47,671 bases of DNA from Bacteroidia bacterium (GTDB taxonomy: Bacteria > Bacteroidota > Bacteroidia > UKL13-3): assembly GCA_025454975.1 (NCBI GenBank), contig JALONK010000022.1, positions 1-47,671 on the forward strand. The letters run 5' to 3'. Under the pieces are notes generated by a model. It saw nothing but the letters and a program-made list of their open reading frames with translations. It had not been told where the DNA came from and made no database searches. Shown piece after piece: positions 1-12,536 of this stretch. Within the stretch, counting starts at the first letter, position 1, and each line of letters opens with the position of its first letter. A program made the position numbers and the translations under genes.

Positions 1-174
1 TAATATAAGACCTCATAAAGCATTAAAAGGTAAAAGTCCTGCTATGATAAAATAAAAAATTGTCTACTTTTGACTTGTACTCAAAATGGGATGCTTACAG
101 AGGTAAGAGTGTTGTATGCTTTTTTTTCATTAACTATCAATTTTTGAGTTTTCTTTTGACAGATTATAATCTCT
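1..174. other. Gene-free left edge of the window
   Basis: AT-rich stretch downstream of the 605-aa nuclease-like gene. I see no coding sequence and no clear terminator hairpin. If the island is built of cassettes, another attC-like hairpin could lie here or just outside the window, but none could be drawn convincingly from the bases present. Confidence 0.4.
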
Positions 175-1992
175 TCAATCTCCATCTATACTTTCAAGAA
201 ACACTCCTAATTCTGTCAACCAATAAAAGTTAGTTGCCCTTTCGGTTTCAGGAAAGTTTTCAAGTAGTTCATGCTCAACTCCATTAAAAACCTCATTTAC
301 TTCTTCCGTTAAGTTATTAAGATTTTCCGCAGTTGACCGATACACATCAAACTCAGGAGTATATGTAACTCTCAAGTAAATCATTCCTCTTGTCTCATAG
401 TCAATCGTGAAATTAAGCTTCTCTATAATTTCGAAATCATTAATTCTATTGCTGAATTTGTCAATCCTAATCTCAAAGGATTTATCATCAAGGTCTGAAA
501 TTTTCCAAACACACTCAAAAATGAATTCTCTCTTTTCAGGTTTAATTGGTGATGGAATAGTGTGGAATTCTTCTAATATGTCTACTATTCGATAGGAAGT
601 TTCAGGATTATTTGGAAATGGATCTTCATCATTTAATGCAGCAATTTTACTCGCTTTTTCCCAGCCTATGCACTCCATATTATGAGAATTAGCAAATTCT
701 AATATTTTTTTCTTTTCAATTTCAAATTCCTCATGAAATAGTGATTTTTCAAATAGAGATATATCAGCGGAAAACATTATTGGTCTTGGATGCATCCAAC
801 AAGCGAGCTCAGCGTTTGGTCCAAATGAATAAATCTTGTCAGGAGGATAGTTTTCAAAATGTTTCTTAATTCCAGCTTCACCTAACAGAAAGAGAGATTT
901 CTTCCAAAAAATTTTATCAACTTCAATATGTCTTGTGACATGTGGATGCAAATCTTCTTGTGCCACACATGTATAATAGATGTAGAATGCTAGGTCATGA
1001 ATTTTGTTGTAAAAGCAGAAGTCGCTGAGTTGAGACATATGAATTCTGCCTGGCCTTTTCCAATTAGTAGAGTTTAAGTCAATTAGAAAATCGTATTCTT
1101 CTATTATCTCTCCATTTTTCAAAATGAATGTTTCGCTATTTACTGGGAAGTTGAATTTCTCAACTTTATATTTCCGATATAAATCTTTGTTCTCTGGAAA
1201 ATGAGGTATTCCAAATCGAACTGCTACATATGAGCTTTCTGAAATTTCAGTTATATCATTTGACAAAACTTTTAATACCTCAGTCTTTAACCTATCAATT
1301 GAATTGAAATAAACATTTCCAGTTAGAACTATCTCGAAAGCAAACACACTGCCAAAATAGCTGCCTGAATTTCGGATGTTCAAATTGTTAAATGGACGAA
1401 ATTGATTTGGTTTGAATAAACTTCTCTCTTTTATTTCAATTTCCGTTCCCTCATCCAATTTGAAATCAATGGGCTTTTTTAATGGAACTTCTACATCTTC
1501 TGGTAGTTTTCTAATAATGAACGGGAGTGATATTGAATTCTTCAAAAGGTGAATTTTTTCACCTTCAAACCAAATCTTTCTGAGGATAGCACTATCAAGT
1601 ACAATATCAACAATTTCGTGTCCTTCTAACCATCCTAAGTTAAAGTCAGGGTAATTATCTAAATATTCTCGTTTACTCTGAGGAGACAGTTTCCCAGAAG
1701 TACAAAAGAACCCATTTGAGCAATTGAATTTATTAAGAGCTATAACAATCTCGTCTGTCTCATTTGTGCCAGATGTCTTATTAAAGTCGTAATGAAACTT
1801 ACATTGGGTAACTACTTTTTCTCCTCTAGGGTTAATAGAAAACACATCCCTTTTTCCATCACCAGTTCCATCAACAACTTTGACATTTCCATGATTAAAA
1901 TGCAGAACAAGAATGTCCGCAATAAGATATGGAAAATCTAACTCATTAATTCCTTCTAAATACTTTAGTTTGTCTTTTAGTTTTCCTGGCAT
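175..1992 (-). CDS. Large protein with N-terminal Mrr-like (QxK) nuclease domain
   Basis: A 605-aa protein. The first 150 residues look like a restriction-endonuclease-fold domain of the Mrr type: a helix near residues 15-30, then VDGTGDGKRDVFSI with the likely metal-binding Asp49, a strand, and TQCKF giving the Q63-x-K65 variant of the PD-(D/E)XK active site. In this family such domains cut DNA, often in restriction or abortive phage defence. Residues 150-605 match nothing I recognise; they have no membrane segments and no obvious NTPase motif, so they may sense or bind a partner. The gene stands alone on the minus strand, separated from the next unit by an attC-like hairpin. The nuclease fold is inferred from motif spacing only; a defence role is inferred from the neighbours. 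Confidence 0.7.
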   Translation of the reverse strand: MPGKLKDKLKYLEGINELDFPYLIADILVLHFNHGNVKVVDGTGDGKRDVFSINPRGEKVVTQCKFHYDFNKTSGTNETDEIVIALNKFNCSNGFFCTSGKLSPQSKREYLDNYPDFNLGWLEGHEIVDIVLDSAILRKIWFEGEKIHLLKNSISLPFIIRKLPEDVEVPLKKPIDFKLDEGTEIEIKERSLFKPNQFRPFNNLNIRNSGSYFGSVFAFEIVLTGNVYFNSIDRLKTEVLKVLSNDITEISESSYVAVRFGIPHFPENKDLYRKYKVEKFNFPVNSETFILKNGEIIEEYDFLIDLNSTNWKRPGRIHMSQLSDFCFYNKIHDLAFYIYYTCVAQEDLHPHVTRHIEVDKIFWKKSLFLLGEAGIKKHFENYPPDKIYSFGPNAELACWMHPRPIMFSADISLFEKSLFHEEFEIEKKKILEFANSHNMECIGWEKASKIAALNDEDPFPNNPETSYRIVDILEEFHTIPSPIKPEKREFIFECVWKISDLDDKSFEIRIDKFSNRINDFEIIEKLNFTIDYETRGMIYLRVTYTPEFDVYRSTAENLNNLTEEVNEVFNGVEHELLENFPETERATNFYWLTELGVFLESIDGD

Positions 1993-2038
1993 ATTGGGCA
2001 GTTTACTCTTTATCAGGGTTTGTTCCTGTTTTATAAAA

Positions 2039-2180
2039 TGGCATACAACGGTGTGCAGCTAGAAGAAGTTGGCGATTTCGGAGACGAAAACTGTCTGCCA
2101 ACACTGAACTTGATACGAAGCACAGAGCTTCATTTAACCACTGAACCGCCAATTTCTTGTAGCTACTGTTATAAGCTGTT
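2039..2180. repeat. attC-like long imperfect inverted repeat (hairpin A)
   Basis: The two ends of this segment are complementary. The left arm at about 2055-2075 (GCAGCTAGAAGAAGTTGGCG) and the right arm at about 2149-2168 (CGCCAATTTCTTGTAGCTAC) pair at 17 of 20 positions, flanked outside by ACAAC on the left and GTTAT on the right. A central loop of about 75 bases contains further short complementary pieces. Terminal AAC/GTT boxes around imperfect arms with a TTGGC core are the architecture of integron attC sites. The right arm overlaps the frame-restored 3' end of the GGCT-like gene. An alternative is a Bacteroidota dispersed intergenic repeat with no recombinase link. Confidence 0.55.
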
Positions 2181-2183
2181 TTT

Positions 2184-2280
2184 CTATATGTCATCACAAG
2201 TTTTCATTTGTGTTAATTGGTCAAAATACTCTTTGGATAAAATGTCTTCTCCGGCAAGTAAATGATTTAAATATTTTTTT
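2184..2280 (-). pseudogene. Out-of-frame C-terminal remainder of the GGCT-like gene
   Basis: Reading the minus strand past the A7 run at 2274-2280 in the shifted frame gives KKYLNHLLAGEDILSKEYF and then about a dozen more residues to a TAG at 2184-2186. From memory, this wording (a KxYLNHLLxGKDxLSxEYF-like ending) is what intact GGCT-like relatives carry, so the piece was part of the upstream gene. Restoring eight A residues would give a protein of roughly 150 aa, closer to the family's usual length. It overlaps the right arm of hairpin A. Confidence 0.7.
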
Positions 2281-2638
2281 GAGGTAGAAGTCCTTGCTTA
2301 ATTTTGTTTGCTTGTACAACATCTGTTTTTGCTTCAATTTGATTACCCGTGTTATCTAAAAGCTTGACTATAGTTTTGTCATAATGAAATGGATAGCCTT
2401 CCTTTTGGTCAAGAAGAGTTATTTCACTATCCGGAAATTCGTATAATGCACCTTCAACAAAATCATTTTCTGATGTAATAATATTTGCAAATGCAAATTC
2501 TCCGCCTTTTGCCTTCTTGCTGGACACAAGTTTATAGCCTAACAATTTGCCAAATTGACGTGAAGTAAAGTTTATCTTCCTTTCCTTCATTCTATCCATG
2601 TCCATATTTGAACCGTATGCAACGTATTTCATTGTCAT
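2267..2638 (-). CDS. Gamma-glutamylcyclotransferase-like protein, C-terminus frameshifted
   Basis: A 123-aa protein of the GGCT/AIG2-like fold: the N-terminus has the hallmark YVAYGSNMD, followed by GALYEF and the LDQKEGYPFHY stretch normal for this family. These proteins process gamma-glutamyl peptides or amines, or act as uncharacterised GGCT-like partners; the substrate here is unknown. Its ATG overlaps the stop of the nuclease gene upstream (ATGA), so the two are translationally coupled. The reading frame ends early: it stops just after an A7 run on the coding strand, while one extra A would continue the frame for about 30 residues of typical family C-terminus (see the separate entry). 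It is either a mutated gene, a slippery site, or a sequencing error. Confidence 0.75.
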   Translation of the reverse strand: MTMKYVAYGSNMDMDRMKERKINFTSRQFGKLLGYKLVSSKKAKGGEFAFANIITSENDFVEGALYEFPDSEITLLDQKEGYPFHYDKTIVKLLDNTGNQIEAKTDVVQANKIKQGLLPQKNI

Positions 2639-3552
2639 ATTCCTGAAATGCGATAATAAATTTCTCCTGTATCAGAAGCGTGTCTTCGCTTTATGAAAAT
2701 CATTTCATTTAATCTAATACGCCCATCTAAAACCATCATCAAGTCTTGGCCATCCATCAATATCATTGATTTTACTACTGAACTTCCTGTCTCGGTACAT
2801 TCAGAAGAATAGCCATCAAGTGAGATGAACAAACCAAGTGTGTTTTTCAGTTTGCCTGAAATTTTGCCACCAAATTTGTAAAGGTCACCTGCATTTATTT
2901 GTGCCTTTTGCCATTTTGCTTCTAGAAGGTAATCGTCATTGTCAAACGTAAATGAGCCATCAATTTGTTCACCAATTATTTTGAAAGGTGCTTTGGGATA
3001 TAAGTCAAAAAGGTGAAACAACTCATTTAATAGTTTCTCTAAACTGAAACCTCTCTGTTGATGGTTTGACCCTGTCGCAATTTCTAAGAATAGATTTTTT
3101 AGTTCATCAAGTTTTTCAGCGAATGATACGGTTTGCTTTACCTTTTCAATATTCTCCATTCTTTTTTCAGCAGCTTTATTGAGTTCTTGCATTGTGTCAA
3201 AATAACCTTTGGTTTGTGCTCTCAGCTTTGCAACTGCTTCTTTTGCTCGTTTTGTAAGGTCACCCTTATCATCCCAATATTTTAAATGGCTAAAATCATT
3301 AATGTTAGAGGTTTCTTGAAGTAAACGCAATAAGTCGTTTTGAAACATATCTTGCCTTGCAGCCATTCTATCTATTAATTGTGAAACACTTTCATATTTT
3401 GGATTCTCTTGCCAATCTATTGTTGAAACGATATATGGATTTTCCATTGTCAGCTCTATAAATTGACGAAGTTCTTTTTTACGCCAATAAACATTGGACA
3501 ATGCATCTTTTAGTGCTATTAAGGCTTGTGTGGATATTTTCTGAACTTTCAT
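2635..3552 (-). CDS. Mrr-like restriction endonuclease-fold protein
   Basis: A 305-aa protein with two parts. Residues 1-160 are largely helical with coiled-coil-like stretches near 100-150; the opening (ALKDALSNVYWRKKELRQF) and VSQLIDRMA are a combination I recall from a widespread family annotated as restriction endonuclease. Residues 165-240 hold a PD-(D/E)XK-type site: the acidic helix LEKLLNELF (170-178), Asp198 in EQIDGSF, and Glu211-x-Lys213 in LLEAKW. Such proteins cleave DNA, commonly as type IV or abortive-infection effectors. No methyltransferase or ATPase is adjacent, so this is not a classical R-M system. It is coupled by ATGA to the GGCT-like gene, and the pair is flanked by attC-like hairpins. 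Confidence 0.75.
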   Translation of the reverse strand: MKVQKISTQALIALKDALSNVYWRKKELRQFIELTMENPYIVSTIDWQENPKYESVSQLIDRMAARQDMFQNDLLRLLQETSNINDFSHLKYWDDKGDLTKRAKEAVAKLRAQTKGYFDTMQELNKAAEKRMENIEKVKQTVSFAEKLDELKNLFLEIATGSNHQQRGFSLEKLLNELFHLFDLYPKAPFKIIGEQIDGSFTFDNDDYLLEAKWQKAQINAGDLYKFGGKISGKLKNTLGLFISLDGYSSECTETGSSVVKSMILMDGQDLMMVLDGRIRLNEMIFIKRRHASDTGEIYYRISGI

Positions 3553-3978
3553 TTTTGTCTGTCAATATTTTTGTCGTTGAGCTTCGTTTGATGTTTACAC
3601 TGTCGTCCTAAAATGGCTTATAACTGTTGGCAGCTTTGCGTACGTGCGGGATTTAATGGCACAAAACTGTAAAGCAAACACTAAAGTTGATTTGAAATAC
3701 TTCGCTTGAATTTAAGCACTTCACCCCGTATGACACCAAACCGCTGTTAGCGGGTGATGTTCTGTCTGTCCGTCCTTGTAAACGATTGTCATTGTTGAAT
3801 TTTACTGTCATTGTTTGTATCGCCTTGTTTTGTGCTGTTGCGTATTTTTTATTTTCAGAAGGGGATGAATTTTTTTATTTCAATTTTGTCAGCATGGAAA
3901 AGGAGGAGGCTATTTTGCAAGCTTTGCCTCGTGTTTGGGTTTGTACTGCTTACAAATATGCTTACACCTGAGCGTTGG
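3553..3978. other. Gene-free stretch between nuclease unit and RT operon
   Basis: This 426-bp gap holds attC-like hairpin B (separate entry) and then about 220 bp (3757-3978) without a convincing gene. The short plus-strand frames here read as low-complexity noise. A 10-bp direct repeat, TGTCATTGTT, occurs at 3787-3796 and 3806-3815. Because the stretch lies just 3' of the reverse transcriptase gene it could contain a 3' UTR or a non-coding RNA, but I see no conserved RNA fold that proves it. Confidence 0.5.
3615..3757. repeat. attC-like imperfect inverted repeat (hairpin B)
   Basis: The left end reads TTATAACTGTTGGCAGC and the right end ACCAAACCGCTGTTAGC, so AAC/GTT boxes and TTGG/CCAA boxes are arranged symmetrically. 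An inner arm CGTGCGGG (3643-3650) pairs with CCCGTATG (3725-3732) with two G-T wobbles. The layout parallels hairpin A, although the loop sequence differs, as is usual for attC sites of different cassettes. It separates the RT operon from the nuclease/GGCT unit. Confidence 0.5.
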
Positions 3979-6900
3979 CTATTCCTCATCTTCAATTGGT
4001 TCAATTATTTTCTCGTTATTAATTCTCTTATTAACCAGTGTTCTGTCCCAATCAGGTGGCATTGGTTTAAATGTTTCGTCCTTATCTGCTTTAATTCTTT
4101 CGAAGTGTTTCAATTGAAACTCTCTCAATAAACTAACATTCATTTCTTCAACTAATATTGTGTCATTCTTTCCACCCTTTAGCTTCATTAAATCCTTTCT
4201 GGCTGATTCTGTAGGTTGAGTTAATCTAGAGTCGCCAAACTGGCTTGTATTGACTTGAGCAATGTAGCAATGCAAATCTCTGGAAAGGGCTTCAACTATG
4301 TTTGAGAAATACGGGGTGTCTTTATTCCATTCAGATGCAACTAATAGGTCAATTTTAGAACGGAAGATACTTCGATGATAAGTATCTGCCAATTCAAAAC
4401 AATAGAAGGAAGTAAAGTAAAGATTTCTCCAATTAATCAGGTCATATCTATAAGGAATGGGCTTTGGAACTTTAAATCCAAAACCTCTAATAATTAATTC
4501 TTCTATATGAGCATAATGATTTTTAAGGCGATAAAGCACAATAGCATCTTTTACTCCATTTATTGTCACAGGAATAATTGATATAATAAAATTGTAAGCA
4601 ATGTCTTTTACATTCCAGTGTTCAAGCCCTGCGATGATAGCCATTTGGTTCTTATCACTATATTTTGCAAGACTTGGGACAAACTCATAAGGAACAGAGA
4701 ATTCAGGTAATACAAATAAGTCTGCACCCTCAATTCTTGATTCTTTTAAGAGTTTTGAAAATACTTTATAACGTTGATTACTGAGATTCGGCTTGCCTTT
4801 TATACTTGCTTCAATATTTTCGATTAATACTTGAGTGTTTGCGATTGAAATTTTAGGGTTTTCTTTAAACTTAAAGTCCTTGTTTATTTGCAATTCATTC
4901 AATTCAACCTTGCGCTCACCGTTAGTTCCTAGAACTGGTTTATGTGTTCTTTTATAAAAATCATCTTTTATCGGATGTTCTGTTGAAAAGTGAACTCGGT
5001 TTATTCTTTCATAGAGAGAATACGCTTTATCCAAAATGAAATTTTCATCTTCTTCCGAATCGGTAAACAATGCTGTATTTTGATAACGTTCATCACAATT
5101 GACAACTAAAGAATCGCTATTAATAAGCATTTCCTTGTTAACAACTGCAATACAACACTCCCAAAATTTAACCATCCGAGGAGAAAGTGAAAGGCTTGCC
5201 TCGGAAAACTCTAATCTATCACGTTTTGATTTTGGCACCTCGGGTAATGAACTGCTTGCAAGATTTAATTGTTTGCCTCTTGCCTCTTTTGTGTAGTTCA
5301 ATAATGGATGCGAAACGTAATGATGTCTTATTAAATTACTTTTTCGAAAACGGGTTATCCCGAGCCTATCTACTCCCTGAACAGTTATATTATTCAAAAA
5401 CTCAACCTCCCAATCGTGTGTATTCTTGAATATTTCAAGGTCTTTATAGGCTTTTGAACCTTTTTTAATAAAACTAGGATTCAAAGCAAGGGGCATTTCA
5501 AAAGAAATATCGAAATATTTAAAGAGAGATGTTGCAACGTTGCTTTGAGAAATTTCAGAACCTTGTATTTTTCGATCTCCATTCTCATTTAGCTTTTTTA
5601 TTTCGCTGTAAGTATTCTTAAAAAAGGATACAAAGCCATCTTGATTATCGTTGGCTAAGAAAAATGTGAATACTTTTTCCCAAAGCCGAAAGTGTTCAAG
5701 ATTATTTAAACCTTTGAATAGTTTCAAAAGCTTTTCAGCTTCGACTTTATCTACTTTTTGGGAACGTCTTAGAGCAGCGAATATCCTATTAGCTAGAAAT
5801 ACGCTTAGTCCATACCGATTTTCTTTGTAATCTTTTAGTGTCCTGATTTTTCCTTCTGAGCCATCAAATATTAAATGATACGCTTGTTCGTCAAATGATT
5901 CTTCACCCTCTGAATCCTCTGGAAAATCTCTAAATTCACTTGCTCGTTCTTCAAGTTCTTGTTTTAGTTTGTCAATTACAGCGGTTGATTCTTTGCTGTC
6001 AAAATAGTAAAGTAGTGTTTTCTTTGGCTGAAAATATGCCCCTTCAATACAAGTTATATTAAAAATTCTTGTTTCATCTTTCTTGTCTTTTTCAGATTGA
6101 GGGACTGACTTCAAAAAATCAGGGTAATCAACCAATCGGATTAATGGGTAAAAGGTTTCAAGTATGAATTTCTCTGTCTTTGAAAAATCTTTTTCTGAAA
6201 AACTAACAGACTCTTTCTCTTTTGTAACCTCTTTTATATATTTCTCGAAAGAAAACTTGATGCTTTTACACTCTTCGGTAGTATGAAAAGTAAAATCAGG
6301 ATTTTCAATTACTACCAAAATGTCATCTACATAGCGACAATAGTAAACCTGCGGAATTAGTTTTTTGATTCTCTTATCAAATTCACGTAAATAGAAATTA
6401 CCAAGTACATAAGATGATGCTATTCCGATAGGAAGAATGCATTTATCACCTATCTGATTTTCTAGTTCTGTATTCGGATACTTAGTCGCTTTAAGTTTAT
6501 CTGTATAACGCTTATGCAGTTCCTTAAAAATATCGTGAATATTTGAATCGTTTTTGTATCCTTCTTTTCCCCATATTTCTTTTTCAATTGCTTCAAAATC
6601 AATACGTGCTGAATAGAAGTAATCTTTTAAGTCAAGATTGATGAAAGCAACTTTGCTACCTGAATGCAATTTCCTTTGAGCCTCTTCAACAGCATTGTCA
6701 CGCCATTTTTGATATTGAGTGAAATATGGTTTAAATAGTCCACTTCCTTTGATAACAGCATTATTTGATTTGTTTAATAGTAGACGATTTCCAACGCAAC
6801 TCATATCAAGTTTTGCATCTAGCTTATAACCGTATCGCATAATCCAAAGAACTGTCACTAAATGAAGTTCAACAGGAATATCTGCAAATACTGTTACCCT

Positions 6901-7275
6901 GTCTATTTCATATGTGTCAAATACTCTTTTGTTTGTTATGAAGTTTTCTTCTTCATCTTTTCTTACGAAATTTTTAGGAAGAAATAACAGGTTAATATCA
7001 TCTAAAAATTGATTGAATCCTTTTTTTGTATGATGTGAATTTAGCCAATCAAGTATCTTATCAAACTTTTTATCAACTTCAAGATTAATTGTTTCAAAAC
7101 CGCTACCATATGGTGTTGAGCCAAACCAAAGTTCATCACTTAATAGACCAGTTTCAAATTCAGCTAGTTTTCTACGTTGGTATAGTTCGCTTGAATCGTG
7201 GTATACGTGGGCTTTATACTTGATATAAGCCTCTTTAAGCTCGTCTTTTGTTATTTTATATCTTCTTGCTGTCAT
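3979..7275 (-). CDS. Reverse transcriptase-nitrilase fusion (UG1/DRT1-like defence RT)
   Basis: A 1098-aa two-domain protein. Residues about 160-400 are a reverse transcriptase: motif A LDLKDYF with Asp215, motif B LPIGIASSYVLGNFYL (281-296), and catalytic YVDD at 315-318. Residues about 805-1030 are a carbon-nitrogen hydrolase (nitrilase) domain with the complete Glu-Lys-Cys triad: Glu858 in VLPEFSVP, Lys918 in RLKNHYAHIEE, Cys959 in FYCFELAD. The 400-800 linker is helical and unrecognised. RT-nitrilase fusions belong to the UG/Abi class of prokaryotic RTs and are known as defence-associated RTs (DRT type 1); UG5/UG6 types with nitrilase domains are an alternative. There is no maturase, group II intron or retron RNA evidence. 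Its ATG overlaps the stop of the membrane-protein gene upstream (TAATG), indicating coupled translation. Confidence 0.93.
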   Translation of the reverse strand: MTARRYKITKDELKEAYIKYKAHVYHDSSELYQRRKLAEFETGLLSDELWFGSTPYGSGFETINLEVDKKFDKILDWLNSHHTKKGFNQFLDDINLLFLPKNFVRKDEEENFITNKRVFDTYEIDRVTVFADIPVELHLVTVLWIMRYGYKLDAKLDMSCVGNRLLLNKSNNAVIKGSGLFKPYFTQYQKWRDNAVEEAQRKLHSGSKVAFINLDLKDYFYSARIDFEAIEKEIWGKEGYKNDSNIHDIFKELHKRYTDKLKATKYPNTELENQIGDKCILPIGIASSYVLGNFYLREFDKRIKKLIPQVYYCRYVDDILVVIENPDFTFHTTEECKSIKFSFEKYIKEVTKEKESVSFSEKDFSKTEKFILETFYPLIRLVDYPDFLKSVPQSEKDKKDETRIFNITCIEGAYFQPKKTLLYYFDSKESTAVIDKLKQELEERASEFRDFPEDSEGEESFDEQAYHLIFDGSEGKIRTLKDYKENRYGLSVFLANRIFAALRRSQKVDKVEAEKLLKLFKGLNNLEHFRLWEKVFTFFLANDNQDGFVSFFKNTYSEIKKLNENGDRKIQGSEISQSNVATSLFKYFDISFEMPLALNPSFIKKGSKAYKDLEIFKNTHDWEVEFLNNITVQGVDRLGITRFRKSNLIRHHYVSHPLLNYTKEARGKQLNLASSSLPEVPKSKRDRLEFSEASLSLSPRMVKFWECCIAVVNKEMLINSDSLVVNCDERYQNTALFTDSEEDENFILDKAYSLYERINRVHFSTEHPIKDDFYKRTHKPVLGTNGERKVELNELQINKDFKFKENPKISIANTQVLIENIEASIKGKPNLSNQRYKVFSKLLKESRIEGADLFVLPEFSVPYEFVPSLAKYSDKNQMAIIAGLEHWNVKDIAYNFIISIIPVTINGVKDAIVLYRLKNHYAHIEELIIRGFGFKVPKPIPYRYDLINWRNLYFTSFYCFELADTYHRSIFRSKIDLLVASEWNKDTPYFSNIVEALSRDLHCYIAQVNTSQFGDSRLTQPTESARKDLMKLKGGKNDTILVEEMNVSLLREFQLKHFERIKADKDETFKPMPPDWDRTLVNKRINNEKIIEPIEDEE

Positions 7276-7799
7276 TATTCAGGTTTTGGGGCTTCTTTGG
7301 TTATTTCTTTCTCTGGAATTGCTGTCGGCTGTTCTGTTTTTGAAGTGCCGTTCAGAATGGTTTCCTTGATGTTGTTGAGTAATTCCATAACAGATATGAA
7401 AATTAAATAGGCTGTAACCAATCCGATAAAAGTCAATTCTAAACTTTGGAAAAACGGAAAATATTGAACGCTGTCTGCTGTCTGTAAAAAAAGTCCTTTA
7501 GCTAAAGAAATTGAACAGACAAGTGTAATTGGATTTCCAATGAACGATAAGATGTCCTCAACAGGTATTCTAAATTCATTGAAAGACATAGATGCACTGA
7601 ACTTGAATTTTCGCATTTTAATTTTGTGCGTCAACATGAAAATAGTTGCTATCCCGCCAGCGAAGTAATTCAAGTTTTCAGTCTCAAAGAAGTTTTTTAA
7701 GCCAATCAATATTTGTGAACGGAAAACATAAGAGTTAATTGCACCTGCGAAAAGCAAGGCAGCAAGACCAACATATTTCCAATCCAATTGTTTGAACAT
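7275..7799 (-). CDS. Four-helix membrane protein coupled to the RT-nitrilase (DRT1b-like)
   Basis: A 174-aa integral membrane protein with hydrophobic segments near residues 10-27, 44-58, 85-106 and 119-143, and a charged Pro/Glu/Lys-rich C-terminal tail likely in the cytoplasm. DRT type 1 systems are described as an RT-nitrilase plus a small membrane protein; the position, size and topology here fit that partner, but I have no sequence-level recognition. The start ATG shares one base with the stop of the glycine-zipper gene upstream (TAATG), and its own TAA shares one base with the RT start, so these genes are probably made in fixed ratio. A likely role is membrane effector or anchor for the RT complex. 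Confidence 0.75.
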   Translation of the reverse strand: MFKQLDWKYVGLAALLFAGAINSYVFRSQILIGLKNFFETENLNYFAGGIATIFMLTHKIKMRKFKFSASMSFNEFRIPVEDILSFIGNPITLVCSISLAKGLFLQTADSVQYFPFFQSLELTFIGLVTAYLIFISVMELLNNIKETILNGTSKTEQPTAIPEKEITKEAPKPE

Positions 7800-8116
7800 T
7801 ATACTCGACTTTGATTAAATCTTAAAACACTATTTGTTTCTGTCTTGTCGCTTTCATTACCTAATGCTCCGCCTAAAGCTCCACCAATTAAAACACCAAT
7901 AGGACCACCAAGAATACCGATAAGACCACCAACAACCGCACCTGCTGCTGTGCTGTTACTCTCTGTCTCGGCAACTACTTCATGAACATGATATTGCTGT
8001 CCATGTAATAAGAACCAAGGACTACCAATAACATTCGCCAACTCACTTCTTGTCGCAGCAAGAATGTTGAGATAGATTTTGTTATTCGATATTTTATTTA
8101 CTACAAACAATTTCAT
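7799..8116 (-). CDS. Small glycine-zipper protein upstream of the DRT1-like pair
   Basis: A 105-aa protein. The first 50 residues look like a small folded domain (KLFVVNKISNNKIYLNI onward) with no signal peptide. Residues about 57-88 are a glycine-zipper segment, with AAGAVVGGLIGILGG followed by GVLIGGALGGALG, a pattern that inserts into or packs within membranes. The C-terminal 17 residues are polar. Glycine zippers occur in pore-forming toxins, outer-membrane Rcp-type proteins and some defence effectors. It is tied to the next gene by a TAATG overlap, which argues that it works with the membrane protein and the RT-nitrilase. I do not know a published DRT1 system with this third part. Confidence 0.7.
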   Translation of the reverse strand: MKLFVVNKISNNKIYLNILAATRSELANVIGSPWFLLHGQQYHVHEVVAETESNSTAAGAVVGGLIGILGGPIGVLIGGALGGALGNESDKTETNSVLRFNQSRV

Positions 8117-8159
8117 TTTTAAATTTTATCGTTAGAAGAATTAAAATTGCAGAAAAATT

Positions 8160-8465
8160 TCATGGATTAAATAGACTGTTTAATTCTTCGAAAAACTTAG
8201 AGATATTTTCGTTGTTTTTGCCCCAGTCAATTATTTGTAATGAAAATGCTGCTTCAGAAGCGATTTCAACTCTTGTAAGATTTGGAGTTACACTTGTAAT
8301 TACAATTTTAAATTTCTCTCCCCATGAAATCAAAGACATACCAACATCAAATAGAATTATTCCTTCGGCAATATCCTCATATTTTACTTTGAAGTTCAAG
8401 TTTATAGCAGCTTCATGGCACTTGATGTAAACTAAATTGTAGGATTTTTTAAACTCTTTTACCAT
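8160..8465 (-). CDS. Small conserved hypothetical protein (SWGEK...DWGKN family)
   Basis: A 101-aa soluble protein of mixed alpha/beta composition. The recognisable pieces are a SLISWGEKFKI strand motif (about residues 44-54), VEIASEA in the middle and DWGKNNENISKFFEEL near the C-terminus. I recall small bacterial proteins with the same 'SWGEK ... VEVSS ... DWGKNxxNVxxFF' wording, but not a function for them. The gene starts 8 bp after the TIR-like gene stops and lies 43 bp before the glycine-zipper gene, so it is probably co-transcribed with both. No catalytic motif is visible; a binding or regulatory role in the defence locus is a guess. Confidence 0.7.
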   Translation of the reverse strand: MVKEFKKSYNLVYIKCHEAAINLNFKVKYEDIAEGIILFDVGMSLISWGEKFKIVITSVTPNLTRVEIASEAAFSLQIIDWGKNNENISKFFEELNSLFNP

Positions 8466-8473
8466 TCTGTTTT

Positions 8474-8986
8474 CTAATAATTGGTTCTGATTTTTATTGC
8501 AGTCTCAACCCAAGTTTGCAAGTTATTTTTAACCTCGTTGTATGGATCGATAGAATTTGGATTATAGCAATGAATAATGCTTGATAGCTTTTTACCATCT
8601 GCAGTAAATGTTTCAAACGGATTTTTTCCTTGCGAGCATTTTCCATCTGAATCTTGATTCCCCTTTATTTTTCTTGCGCACTTGAAGTTGTGGATATGTA
8701 TTCCTAAAAGACCTTTGCCTTCATTCCATGCTTTTTTTATTTCGTATCGAACCCATGGCCTTTGATGTGTTTCCTCACCAACTAAAACTACGACACAACT
8801 TCTGTATTGCATGTTATCGTTAATCCATTTTTCTATTGCCTTATCTCCGCCACGCGTTACTTGTTCCCAGTCATTTACTGAAACTGGTTGATTGTCCTCC
8901 AAAGAACCAATATTTCTAATTTGTTGAACTCTAAAAACGTCTTTCGCATAATGAAAACTGTAAAATATTTTTCGCTTTGTAGTCAT
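8474..8986 (-). CDS. TIR-like DUF1863 (ThsB-type) protein
   Basis: A 170-aa protein of the MTH538/DUF1863 TIR-like family. Residues 5-12 (RKIFYSFH) form the first strand and loop, residue 40 onward holds WEQV...KAIEKWI, VVVLVGEET is at 65-73, and RPWVRYEIKKAW at 76-87 carries the conserved acidic residue Glu82 expected in the nucleotide-binding pocket. In Thoeris, ThsB proteins of this family sense phage and make an NAD-derived cyclic or conjugated signal that activates a separate effector. No SIR2-type ThsA is present; the neighbour upstream is a small membrane protein 7 bp away, which may be the effector. DUF1863 proteins also occur outside Thoeris, so naming it thsB would be premature. Confidence 0.85.
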   Translation of the reverse strand: MTTKRKIFYSFHYAKDVFRVQQIRNIGSLEDNQPVSVNDWEQVTRGGDKAIEKWINDNMQYRSCVVVLVGEETHQRPWVRYEIKKAWNEGKGLLGIHIHNFKCARKIKGNQDSDGKCSQGKNPFETFTADGKKLSSIIHCYNPNSIDPYNEVKNNLQTWVETAIKIRTNY

Positions 8987-8993
8987 ACTAAGT

Positions 8994-9389
8994 TTATTTG
9001 AAACAATACACTATGATTAAAAGAGTAACAAGGACAAATCCATAAAACAAAAGAATTGTTTTTGAAAATGCGGCACTTGACCAATCAAAAAACCCTTTGT
9101 TAAATTGTTTTGTATTTAGCGAAAAGTCAATAGATGTCGCTTTACGAGCATGGTCATATACTTTTCTGAATAGCCTCTCTTGATATAAGTAATAGCTGTC
9201 AAGAAGCCAAAAAGCAATAGTCGGGAAATAAGCAACAATTAAAATACGGTGGTTGCTATCCTTGGCAGCCAATGCAAACAATGCAGACACAAGTGTAACT
9301 GTCCAACTCTTGATAAAAAAAGAGTTTTGCCCCATTCGGTTAATTACTCCTTGTGCAAATTCAAGGTGCTTGCTTTTTTCTTCTGTCAT
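8994..9389 (-). CDS. Small membrane protein paired with TIR-like protein (candidate effector)
   Basis: A 131-aa protein from the ATG at 9389 (MTEEKSKHLEF); a start four codons further upstream is possible, but relatives I recall begin at this methionine. The opening EEKSKHLEFAQGVINRM is amphipathic, followed by two closely spaced membrane segments (about 27-42 and 50-68), a cytosolic stretch with YLYQERLFRKVYD, and one C-terminal membrane segment (about 110-129). Small membrane proteins with this layout are, from memory, often found next to TIR or DUF1863 genes. As first gene of the run it could be a signal-gated membrane-disrupting effector. That role is an inference. Confidence 0.75.
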   Translation of the reverse strand: MTEEKSKHLEFAQGVINRMGQNSFFIKSWTVTLVSALFALAAKDSNHRILIVAYFPTIAFWLLDSYYLYQERLFRKVYDHARKATSIDFSLNTKQFNKGFFDWSSAAFSKTILLFYGFVLVTLLIIVYCFK

Positions 9390-9457
9390 TTTTAATTTCA
9401 ATTATTATTTGCACAATCGTCAATAGAATACCACCAAATAATCTATCTACCATAAAC

Positions 9458-9592
9458 TTACATATAATTTTCTTTTAAGAACAATGCTGTTTCTCGCTTA
9501 TCATAACACTTTTGAATAAATAAACGAAACTTACCTTCACTTGCGATTACATTCCTAATAAAATCTTCTGCTTGTTTTTTTATGGTTTTCAT
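9458..9592 (-). CDS. Short ORF, possible gene remnant
   Basis: A frame of about 44 codons on the minus strand beginning MKTIKKQAEDFIRNVIASEG and ending KENYM. Its composition (charged, helical, few rare residues) resembles real protein more than random reading, but it has no recognisable domain. It lies at the edge of the island and could be the surviving start of a truncated gene or a small stand-alone peptide. Confidence is low. Confidence 0.3.
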   Translation of the reverse strand: MKTIKKQAEDFIRNVIASEGKFRLFIQKCYDKRETALFLKENYM

Positions 9593-9679
9593 TTGGGGTA
9601 ATCGGATATATACGAATACGAAGTAAGGAAAATAAATTATGAATGTCAAGGGAATTTAAACAGCTTAGGGAATGCAGCG

Positions 9680-9785
9680 GAAATCCTTTTTTGAGGCACG
9701 AAAAAAAGATTGCAACGAAATGCCCGACCCTGCTTGCATTGCTTTTGCCTCGCGCTTTGGATGCATAGCAGGGGAAGCCCCAAAT
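9680..9785. repeat. Structured repeat-like element in the metH leader
   Basis: Two strong pairings are visible: CCCTGCTTGCAT (9728-9739) with ATGCATAGCAGGG (9761-9773), broken by one bulged base, and GAGGCA (9693-9698) with TGCCTC (9746-9751). A short GGGG-AAG-CCCC hairpin follows at 9771-9781. I recall similar wording, on the minus strand, as a dispersed intergenic repeat in Bacteroidota genomes. It is open in the metH frame, but the translated residues are Cys/Trp-rich and unlike MetH, so it is probably untranslated. Whether it regulates metH is unknown. Confidence 0.4.
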
Positions 9786-9857
9786 TACTTGTGTTTTTAC
9801 ATTATGCACTGTTGGTGGTATTCATTATCTTGCAGCGAATTTCTTGAATACTATTAC

Positions 9858-12536
9858 ATGACGAAAGCAGATTATACATTACGACTTTCAGGATTAGAGC
9901 CTTTGGTTATTTATGAAGGCTCGAACTTTATTAATGTTGGCGAACGTACCAATGTTACCGGTTCGAAAAAGTTTTTGCGCCTGATTAAAGAAGGGCAGTT
10001 TGATGATGCTCTTGAAGTTGCCCGCGAACAAGTGCAAGGCGGTGCTCAGGTTATTGATATTAACATGGATGAAGGCATGATTGATGGCGCCGAAGCTATG
10101 ACTCGTTTTCTTCACCTGGTTATGGCCGAACCCGATATTGCTCGTGTTCCTATTATGATTGACTCATCGAAATGGGAAATTATTGAGGCCGGTCTTAAAT
10201 GTGTGCAAGGTAAATGTGTGGTGAATTCTATTTCGCTTAAAGGTGGTGAAGAGGAATTTATTAAACAAGCCAAAACTGTAAAACGCTTTGGTGCCGCTGT
10301 AATTGTAATGCTTTTCGACGAGGTGGGCCAAGCCGATAACTATAACAGACGTATTGAAATTGCCGAACGTGCTTACCGCATCTTAACCGAAAAGGTTGGC
10401 TTTCCGGCCGGTGATATCATTTTTGACCCAAACATTTTCCCCGTAGCCACCGGCATGGAGGAACATCGTAAAAATGCGCTCGACTTTTTTAACGCAACCA
10501 AATGGATTAAGGAAAATTTACCCGGTGCAAAAATTAGCGGTGGCGTTTCTAACGTGTCTTTTTCATTTCGTGGTAACGATAAAGTGCGCGAAGCCATGCA
10601 TTCGGCTTTTTTATACCATGGCATTAAACATGGTATGGATATGGGTATTGTAAACCCGAGTCAGCTTGAGGTGTACGACGAAATTGATAAAGACTTACTA
10701 ACTTATGTGGAAGATGTGTTGCTCGACAGAAAAGATGATGCCACAGAACGTTTGTTGGAATATGCTGAAAAGGTTAAAGGCAAGGGCAAGGAAAAAGTTG
10801 TGGATGAGGAATGGCGCAAAGGCACTGTTGAAGAGCGTTTGAGCCACGCTTTGGTAAAAGGAATTGTTGATTATATTGATGCAGATACGGAAGAAGCTCG
10901 CCAAAAATATGGTCGCCCGCTTAATGTAATTGAAGGACCACTAATGGCAGGTATGAATGTGGTGGGTGACTTATTTGGTGAAGGTAAAATGTTTTTACCT
11001 CAGGTGGTGAAAAGTGCTCGTGTAATGAAAAAAGCAGTAGCCTATTTAACTCCATATTTAGAGGAAGAAAAACGCTTGGCCGGAACAACAGGCAGCAGTG
11101 GTGCAGGTAAAATTTTATTGGCTACCGTTAAAGGTGATGTGCATGATATTGGTAAAAATATCGTAGGTGTGGTATTGGCTTGTAACAATTTTGAAATTAT
11201 TGATTTGGGGGTGATGATTCCGGCTGATAAAATTTTGGAAACGGCCATAAAGGAAAATGTAGATGCCATTGGTTTGAGTGGATTAATTACACCCAGCCTT
11301 GATGAAATGGTGCATGTAGCCAAAGAAATGGAACGTTTAAATATGAAACTTCCATTGCTTATTGGTGGCGCAACAACCAGTAAAGTGCACACTGCCGTTA
11401 AAATTGATCCGAACTACTCGGGGCCGGTGGTGCATGTGTTGGACGCAAGTAAAAGTGTGCCGGTAGCACAAAGTTTAATAAGCAAAGAACAACGTCCGGG
11501 CGTTGAAAAAAACCTGAAAGCTGACTACGAAAAATTTCGCGAAGACTATAAAAACCGTAAACGTGAAAAACAGTTTGTGTCGTTAGACAAGGCACGGTCA
11601 ACTCGCATTACGGTGAATCACGAACAGATTATTGCACCTACTTTTACAGGAATAAAAGTATTTGATGATTACCCATTGGAAGAGTTAAGGAGTTATATTG
11701 ACTGGACTCCATTTTTTGCAACGTGGGAATTGGCAGGCAGGTATCCTAAAATTTTGCAGGATGAGGTTGTAGGTAAAGAGGCACAAAAATTATTTGATGA
11801 TGCCAATAAAATGTTGGATGAAGTGATTGCTGAAAAACGGTTACAAGCCAAGGCTGTTATTGGTTTTTGGCCGGCTAATGCTGTTGGCGATGATGTAACA
11901 TTATCGGTAAATGGAAAGGATGCTACGTTTCATTTTTTACGTCAGCAAAGTGAAAAAGCCGAAGGGCAAACCTATCATTGTTTAGCCGATTTTGTATCGC
12001 AAGCCGATAAAGGAAAAACGGATTATATGGGAGGATTTGCAGTTACTGCAGGTATTGGAATTGAGAAGTGGGTTGAGCAGTATGAAAAAGACCACGACGA
12101 TTATAAGAGCATTATGATTAAAGCCATTGCCGATCGTTTGGCAGAGGCATTTGCAGAGCGTATGCATGAAAGGGTGAGAAAAGAATTTTGGGGTTATGCA
12201 AGTGACGAAACGTTGAGTAATGATGAATTGATTAAGGAGGAATACCGTGGTATTCGTCCGGCTCCGGGTTATCCTGCTTGTCCCGACCATACCGAAAAAC
12301 GATTGTTGTTTGATTTATTGGGTGCCGAAGAACATGCAAATATTAACCTTACCGAAAACTTTGCCATGTATCCGGCAGCCAGTGTAAGTGGATTTTATTT
12401 TGCACATCCCGAAAGCAAATATTTTGGTATTGGTAAAATTAATAAAGACCAAGTAGAGGAATATGCCACACGTAAAGGTGTAAGTGTTGATTATGTTGAA
12501 CGTTGGTTGGCACCGAACTTGGGTTATGATGCATAG
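9858..12536 (+). CDS. metH: Cobalamin-dependent methionine synthase, lacking the homocysteine domain
   Basis: An 892-aa protein from the ATG at 9858. It contains the pterin-binding domain (residues about 15-270; [12 protein letters not shown]), the cobalamin cap and B12 domain with DVHDIG whose His429 would be the lower axial cobalt ligand, and the C-terminal activation domain with the AdoMet-binding [12 protein letters not shown]. It transfers a methyl group from methyltetrahydrofolate through cobalamin to homocysteine. The roughly 330-residue N-terminal homocysteine-binding module of E. coli MetH is absent, a split common in Bacteroidota where that module is a separate gene; that gene and metF are not in this window. 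An upstream in-frame extension to 9672 is rejected as leader sequence. A strong terminator follows. Confidence 0.95.

Follow-up and report, generated by a model that had tools for sequence, protein, structure and literature searches.

The window analysed here (the whole 47,671-nucleotide stretch, from contig JALONK010000022.1 of a Bacteroidia bacterium) opens on a gene for a 605-aa protein that joins an Mrr-type nuclease to a long C-terminal region, and the question raised by this locus is what such a protein does. An initial annotation made from the letters alone proposed it as a candidate for single-protein phage defence, an interpretation that is reasonable and is partly supported by the analysis described herein. 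We give a probability of about 0.58 to the reading that the product is a self-sufficient, one-protein phage defence in which an Mrr-type DNase is held inactive by an infection-sensing tail. No publication describing this architecture was found by title or passage in the open-access literature searched. Single-protein nuclease defences are compact and lend themselves to testing, and the large conserved tail of this one allows a cleanly interpretable mutant experiment.

175..1992, minus strand: the 605-aa gene (ORF; three full-length relatives; purifying selection)

The ORF of 605 codons is present as annotated and begins with ATG; its strand, which had been left unstated, is the minus strand, while the plus strand over the same positions is riddled with stops. 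A peptide-pattern scan of a genome collection returned 42 pattern stretches, among which were three full-length relatives, from Aureisphaera galaxeae (78% identity; locus L002), Parapedobacter sp. (54%; L003) and Flavobacterium lotistagni (54%; L004). Since the scan requires exact short peptides, distant relatives could have escaped it. At the DNA level, the similarity sets in at the ATG and is lost past the stop codon. In a comparison with the Aureisphaera relative, residues 1-150 gave an NG86 dN/dS of 0.064/0.534 and residues 151-605 one of 0.149/0.88, so that nuclease and tail are both under purifying selection. The ORF is thus more than a chance occurrence, given its three full-length relatives and the selection acting on both of its parts.

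1543..1992, minus strand: Mrr_cat nuclease domain, residues 1-150 (Pfam; 4/4 members; invariant residues)
1846-1848, minus strand: codon of D49
1804-1806, minus strand: codon of Q63
1798-1800, minus strand: codon of K65

The claim of an Mrr-type domain at the N-terminus was borne out. The Pfam family Mrr_cat (PF04471) covers residues 15-110 and scores 32.1 bits where the cut-off is 21 (E 1.3e-7), and all four family members match it. D49 (in GDGKRD) and Q63-x-K65 (in TQCKFH) lie at the positions previously claimed and are invariant in 4/4 members; these three would correspond to the catalytic residues of PD-(D/E)xK nucleases. The protein thus resembles PF04471 both in a score above the cut-off and in having the D and QxK in place, but differs in that its domain is N-terminal and is joined to a region of ~440 residues absent from every library searched. 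A sequence or profile search of the PDB found no relative of the nuclease domain, fibrinogen entries matching its profile (E 0.13-0.97) being attributed to chance. In the AlphaFold model of the whole protein, built on four sequences, the pLDDT of this domain was mostly <50.

178..1542, minus strand: tail, residues 151-605, acidic, matching no library (Pfam, PADLOC, NCBIfam, PHROGs and PDB searches; pI; dN/dS)
208..531, minus strand: ferredoxin-like unit, residues ~488-595 (in both low-confidence models)

The tail was said to contain no known domain after residue 150, and nothing meaningful was found there: residues ~165-605 gave only chance-level scores against Pfam, PADLOC, NCBIfam, PHROGs and PDB sequences. 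In the same searches, a housekeeping C-terminus, which would have spoken against a defence role, was looked for and met with chance-level scores only. Neither this nor a missing nuclease fold, the two findings named beforehand as refuting, turned up, but with so small a family the lack of a housekeeping match carries little weight. For the same reason, the tail is left without an assigned fold. The structure prediction and fold search that had been suggested for it gave two poor AlphaFold models (whole protein, mean pLDDT 44.0; residues 165-605 modelled separately, 49.8), the family of four sequences offering too few relatives. Only a ferredoxin-like beta-alpha-beta-beta-alpha unit at ~488-595 recurred in both (best Z by VIA-align, 8.0 and 8.5). 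This unit filled the VIA-align lists, and the remaining parts of the tail were barely sampled; the tool itself labels the arrangement as common, and it is silent on function. A self-comparison with hhalign found no internal repeats in the tail, as it returned only self-overlaps of pieces and otherwise probabilities <1%.

In the preferred reading, that of a one-protein defence, the N-terminal PD-(D/E)xK (Mrr-type) domain is predicted from its sequence to be a DNase effector, and the C-terminal region of ~440 residues would keep this nuclease inactive until infection is sensed. A product or structure of the phage may act as the trigger, and cleavage would then fall on phage DNA, or on all DNA as abortive infection. 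Some control of the nuclease is presumably needed, because a DNase that is always active would be expected to damage a host with no protecting methyltransferase. The conservation of the two halves, compared over four sequences, would fit an effector joined to a faster-changing sensor: identities to the three relatives are 87/74/77% over residues 1-164 versus 75/46/46% over residues 165-605. Nonetheless, a fast-changing sensor can be at most part of the story, because the segment 441-500 is exceptional: its identity to the nearest relative is 92%, roughly the level of the nuclease in that comparison, and its identity to the two others is 65%.

The main rival to the defence reading is a modification-dependent restriction enzyme. 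E. coli Mrr is a Type IV enzyme, and in a protein of this kind the tail would read modified bases and the Mrr-type domain would cut, with no infection signal involved. An Mrr-type domain is indeed present, and no methyltransferase partner is constant among the four genomes. However, in none of the four members did Pfam reveal a known domain for reading modified bases or binding DNA within the tail, although a reader of a new type may be present, and residues 151-605 are acidic in all of them (pI 4.88-5.16), which is unusual, though possible, for a DNA reader. A Type IV-like enzyme seems unlikely to us.

One-protein defence, by comparison, has a parallel in layout. A single-gene system validated in E. 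coli (PMC9519451) consists of a nuclease of the Mrr family at the N-terminus and a 7-bladed beta-propeller behind it. It is alike in being one protein with an N-terminal Mrr-type nuclease and a large C-terminal part, but the poor models obtained here give no sign of a beta-propeller, and the likeness drawn is one of layout. Moreover, 13/31 validated defence systems of DefensePredictor have PD-(D/E)XK domains, according to PMC13092281; those are E. coli proteins that share the nuclease superfamily with the present one. Counted in favour of the defence reading are the Mrr_cat matches in 4/4 members, the invariant residues, the defence neighbours, the similarity limited to the gene and its rarity, as well as its lone occurrence in Aureisphaera at a site whose content differs from congener to congener. 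Counted against it are the tail without an assigned fold, the conserved segment 441-500, the fact that 4/4 members match no PADLOC model (0 families at E <= 1) and the small number of sequences known here, only four.

The distribution of the gene was followed in several searches. Whole-genome searches found it in 1/196 relatives (the source genome itself) and 1/395 genomes of the phylum (its own), and a search with a C-terminal profile in the class likewise found only its own genome (1/295). Around F. lotistagni, the family sample gave 2/397 genomes, both already known, and the genus sample 1/199, F. lotistagni itself. The family sample around Parapedobacter gave 2/301, one known and the other a nuclease-only match to residues 13-111 inside a 791-codon frame. 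No viral, phage or plasmid relative was confirmed among 92, 54 and 92 stretches retrieved by peptide patterns, and further searches gave 0 matches, with none at 1e-5. When E was relaxed up to 5, a single Nonomuraea match to the nuclease part only was obtained (E 0.04); this weak tblastn match is to an Mrr-type protein whose own D and QCK align with D49 and Q63-x-K65. A phage protein of unspecified function (E 0.7) in a search at E up to 5 was treated as chance, and a second relaxed search at E up to 5 gave no match. Judged by sequence, the gene is rare and horizontally scattered, in a pattern of movement between genera.

The protein was taken to be a stand-alone one, and independence from fixed partners is supported: neighbours differ in all four genomes, and no gene neighbour is constant over them. 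The Aureisphaera copy is flanked by a Gfo/Idh/MocA oxidoreductase gene and an EF-G-type gene, and 0/9 neighbours match PADLOC, so the gene needs no fixed partner. Five Aureisphaera congeners with the same oxidoreductase gene (79-91% identical) carry different genes downstream of it; in 3/5 of these, the oxidoreductase gene is followed by one or two short genes and then by the end of a GAPDH-like gene. The site is thus variable, and the 605-aa gene is among its cargoes. In one congener (L013:340-1380, minus strand), the same variable site carries a 346-aa gene without a Pfam match.

The Parapedobacter copy is convergent with an MTase_II gene, and that of F. lotistagni with a gene lacking a Pfam match, beyond which come HEPN_AbiV, MTase_II, PtuB-like HNH and HATPase genes. 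The MTase_II genes within a few kb of these two relatives would suit a role as the nuclease of a conventional restriction-modification pair. That role is nevertheless highly improbable, as the best PADLOC models of these methyltransferases differ (PDLC03335 and PDLC03267) and none was detected next to the gene in the window or in Aureisphaera. The HATPase and MTase_II genes beside the two relatives belong to two different operons (L003:5761-11799 and L004:9806-17797). At both loci, the stop codon of the relative overlaps the convergent gene by 4 bases.

Defence genes adjoin the gene in the window and in the Parapedobacter and F. lotistagni loci. This, together with a patchy presence that speaks against a general repair role, makes it quite unlikely that the gene lies outside defence altogether, as a nuclease of DNA repair or element maintenance or as a plain toxin on mobile elements. 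Such roles would find some support in the Parapedobacter contig, which carries a VapE-like protein (a mobile-element marker), in the Aureisphaera copy without defence neighbours, and in the fact that passengers also occur in defence islands.

1..99, plus strand: IS end (rve-type transposase) at the contig break (recurring bases; transposase genes on a full copy)
2267..2638, minus strand: GGACT (gamma-glutamylcyclotransferase/AIG2-like) gene, between two hairpins (Pfam GGACT, E 2.6e-9)
2635..3552, minus strand: 305-aa protein carrying another Mrr_cat domain at its C-terminus, between two hairpins (Pfam Mrr_cat, E 1.4e-6)
3979..7275, minus strand: DRT UG5-nitrilase reverse transcriptase, 1098 aa (PADLOC RT_UG5-nitrilase, E 5.4e-234)
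8474..9401, minus strand: ThsB/PDC-M50B and PDC-M50A, a phage-defence candidate pair (PADLOC, E 2e-67 for ThsB and 1.7e-48 for PDC-M50A)

In the window, the gene closes a minus-strand run of PDC-M50A, ThsB/PDC-M50B, three small genes, the DRT UG5-nitrilase gene, the 305-aa Mrr_cat protein and the GGACT-like gene; the PADLOC matches to three of these neighbours agree with the defence-island position proposed earlier. The N-terminus of the 305-aa protein has a weak EAD1-like match in Pfam (E 0.002, below the cut-off). The contig breaks off 174 bases past the gene, within the IS end: bases 1-99 recur at 100% in two other places, as do bases 2-99 in one more, and a full copy of the IS elsewhere carries rve-type transposase genes.

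2030..2187, minus strand: attC-like hairpin upstream of the gene, 158 bases (models R1 and R2; covariation; 87% copy elsewhere in the genome)
3605..3765, minus strand: another attC-like hairpin, in the gap separating the DRT gene from the 305-aa gene (likeness to 2030-2187; model R2)
L050:1173-1330, plus strand: attC-like hairpin (covariance model)
L051:866-1022 and 3886-4025, plus strand: attC-like hairpins (covariance model)
L052:3108-3247, 4663-4821 and 5484-5641, plus strand: attC-like hairpins (covariance model)
L058:5926-6083, minus strand: attC-like hairpin (covariance model)

How the gene might have moved is suggested by a hairpin 37 bases upstream of its start codon. A first covariance model built on five such elements recovered three further elements outside its training set (E <0.001), and a second, built on eight and scanned over 13 sources only, recovered a ninth on contig C66. 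The nine attC-like hairpins in the fetched stretches of the genome are distributed over five contigs; they sit between or after unrelated genes, and 9/9 lie on the strand of the genes that flank them. Among the eight aligned hairpins, 16/24 pairs show changes on both sides, a value reached by 0/500 shuffles, although fitting the alignment to the structure, as was done, favours such an outcome. Shifting the pairing partner by 1-3 columns lowered the paired cells from 80% to 35-45%. On L050, the N-terminal half of a truncated tyrosine recombinase (Phage_int_SAM_4; 318-1016, plus strand) ends ~160 bases before the attC-like hairpin, having run into an rve_3 transposase end.

Taken from sequence, hairpins and same-strand genes together suggest that this genome of the Bacteroidota holds an array with the anatomy of integron cassettes. 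Kieffer et al. and Darracq et al. are said to have described integron cassettes with defence systems; the present locus would be alike in that defence-type genes are parted by same-strand attC-like hairpins, but unlike in that no integrase scores above the cut-off and no attC was found downstream of the gene. In this draft genome, seven matches to the integron integrase (IntI) profile TIGR02249 were obtained, 0 of them over the cut-off. On the 3' side of the gene, only 75 bases remain before the IS; compared with the 5' end of the hairpins, they scored no better than shuffles (1235/2000 at least as high), which gives no support to an attC at the gene's own 3' end. Model R2 found no attC-like site beside the relatives in L002, L003 or L004 (E <= 0.1). 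The IntegronFinder 2.0 paper (PMC9024848) names a complete integron in one Bacteroidetes genome only, that of Salinibacter, and a review (PMC8618304) counts Bacteroidota among the integron-bearing phyla.

A more far-reaching proposal, which we regard as tentative and doubtful as a whole, is that the tail has an undescribed sensor fold of its own and that the protein is a one-protein defence travelling as a Bacteroidota integron-like cassette. The array would then use attC-like sites and a recombinase missed by the standard integron-integrase profile, and neighbouring cassettes would carry defence genes. The array reading may matter more than the 605-aa gene itself; if it is true, defence genes of Bacteroidota could be harvested by walking from hairpin to hairpin.

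Over positions 1-9700 of the window, a promoter and terminator scan gave no excess over shuffles (36 versus a mean of 35.5, and 5 versus 4.9). Over positions 1-10000, Rfam gave the Flavo-1 RNA only; it lies at 9658-9733 on the plus strand, above the gathering score, and overlaps the start of a metH-like ORF as listed.
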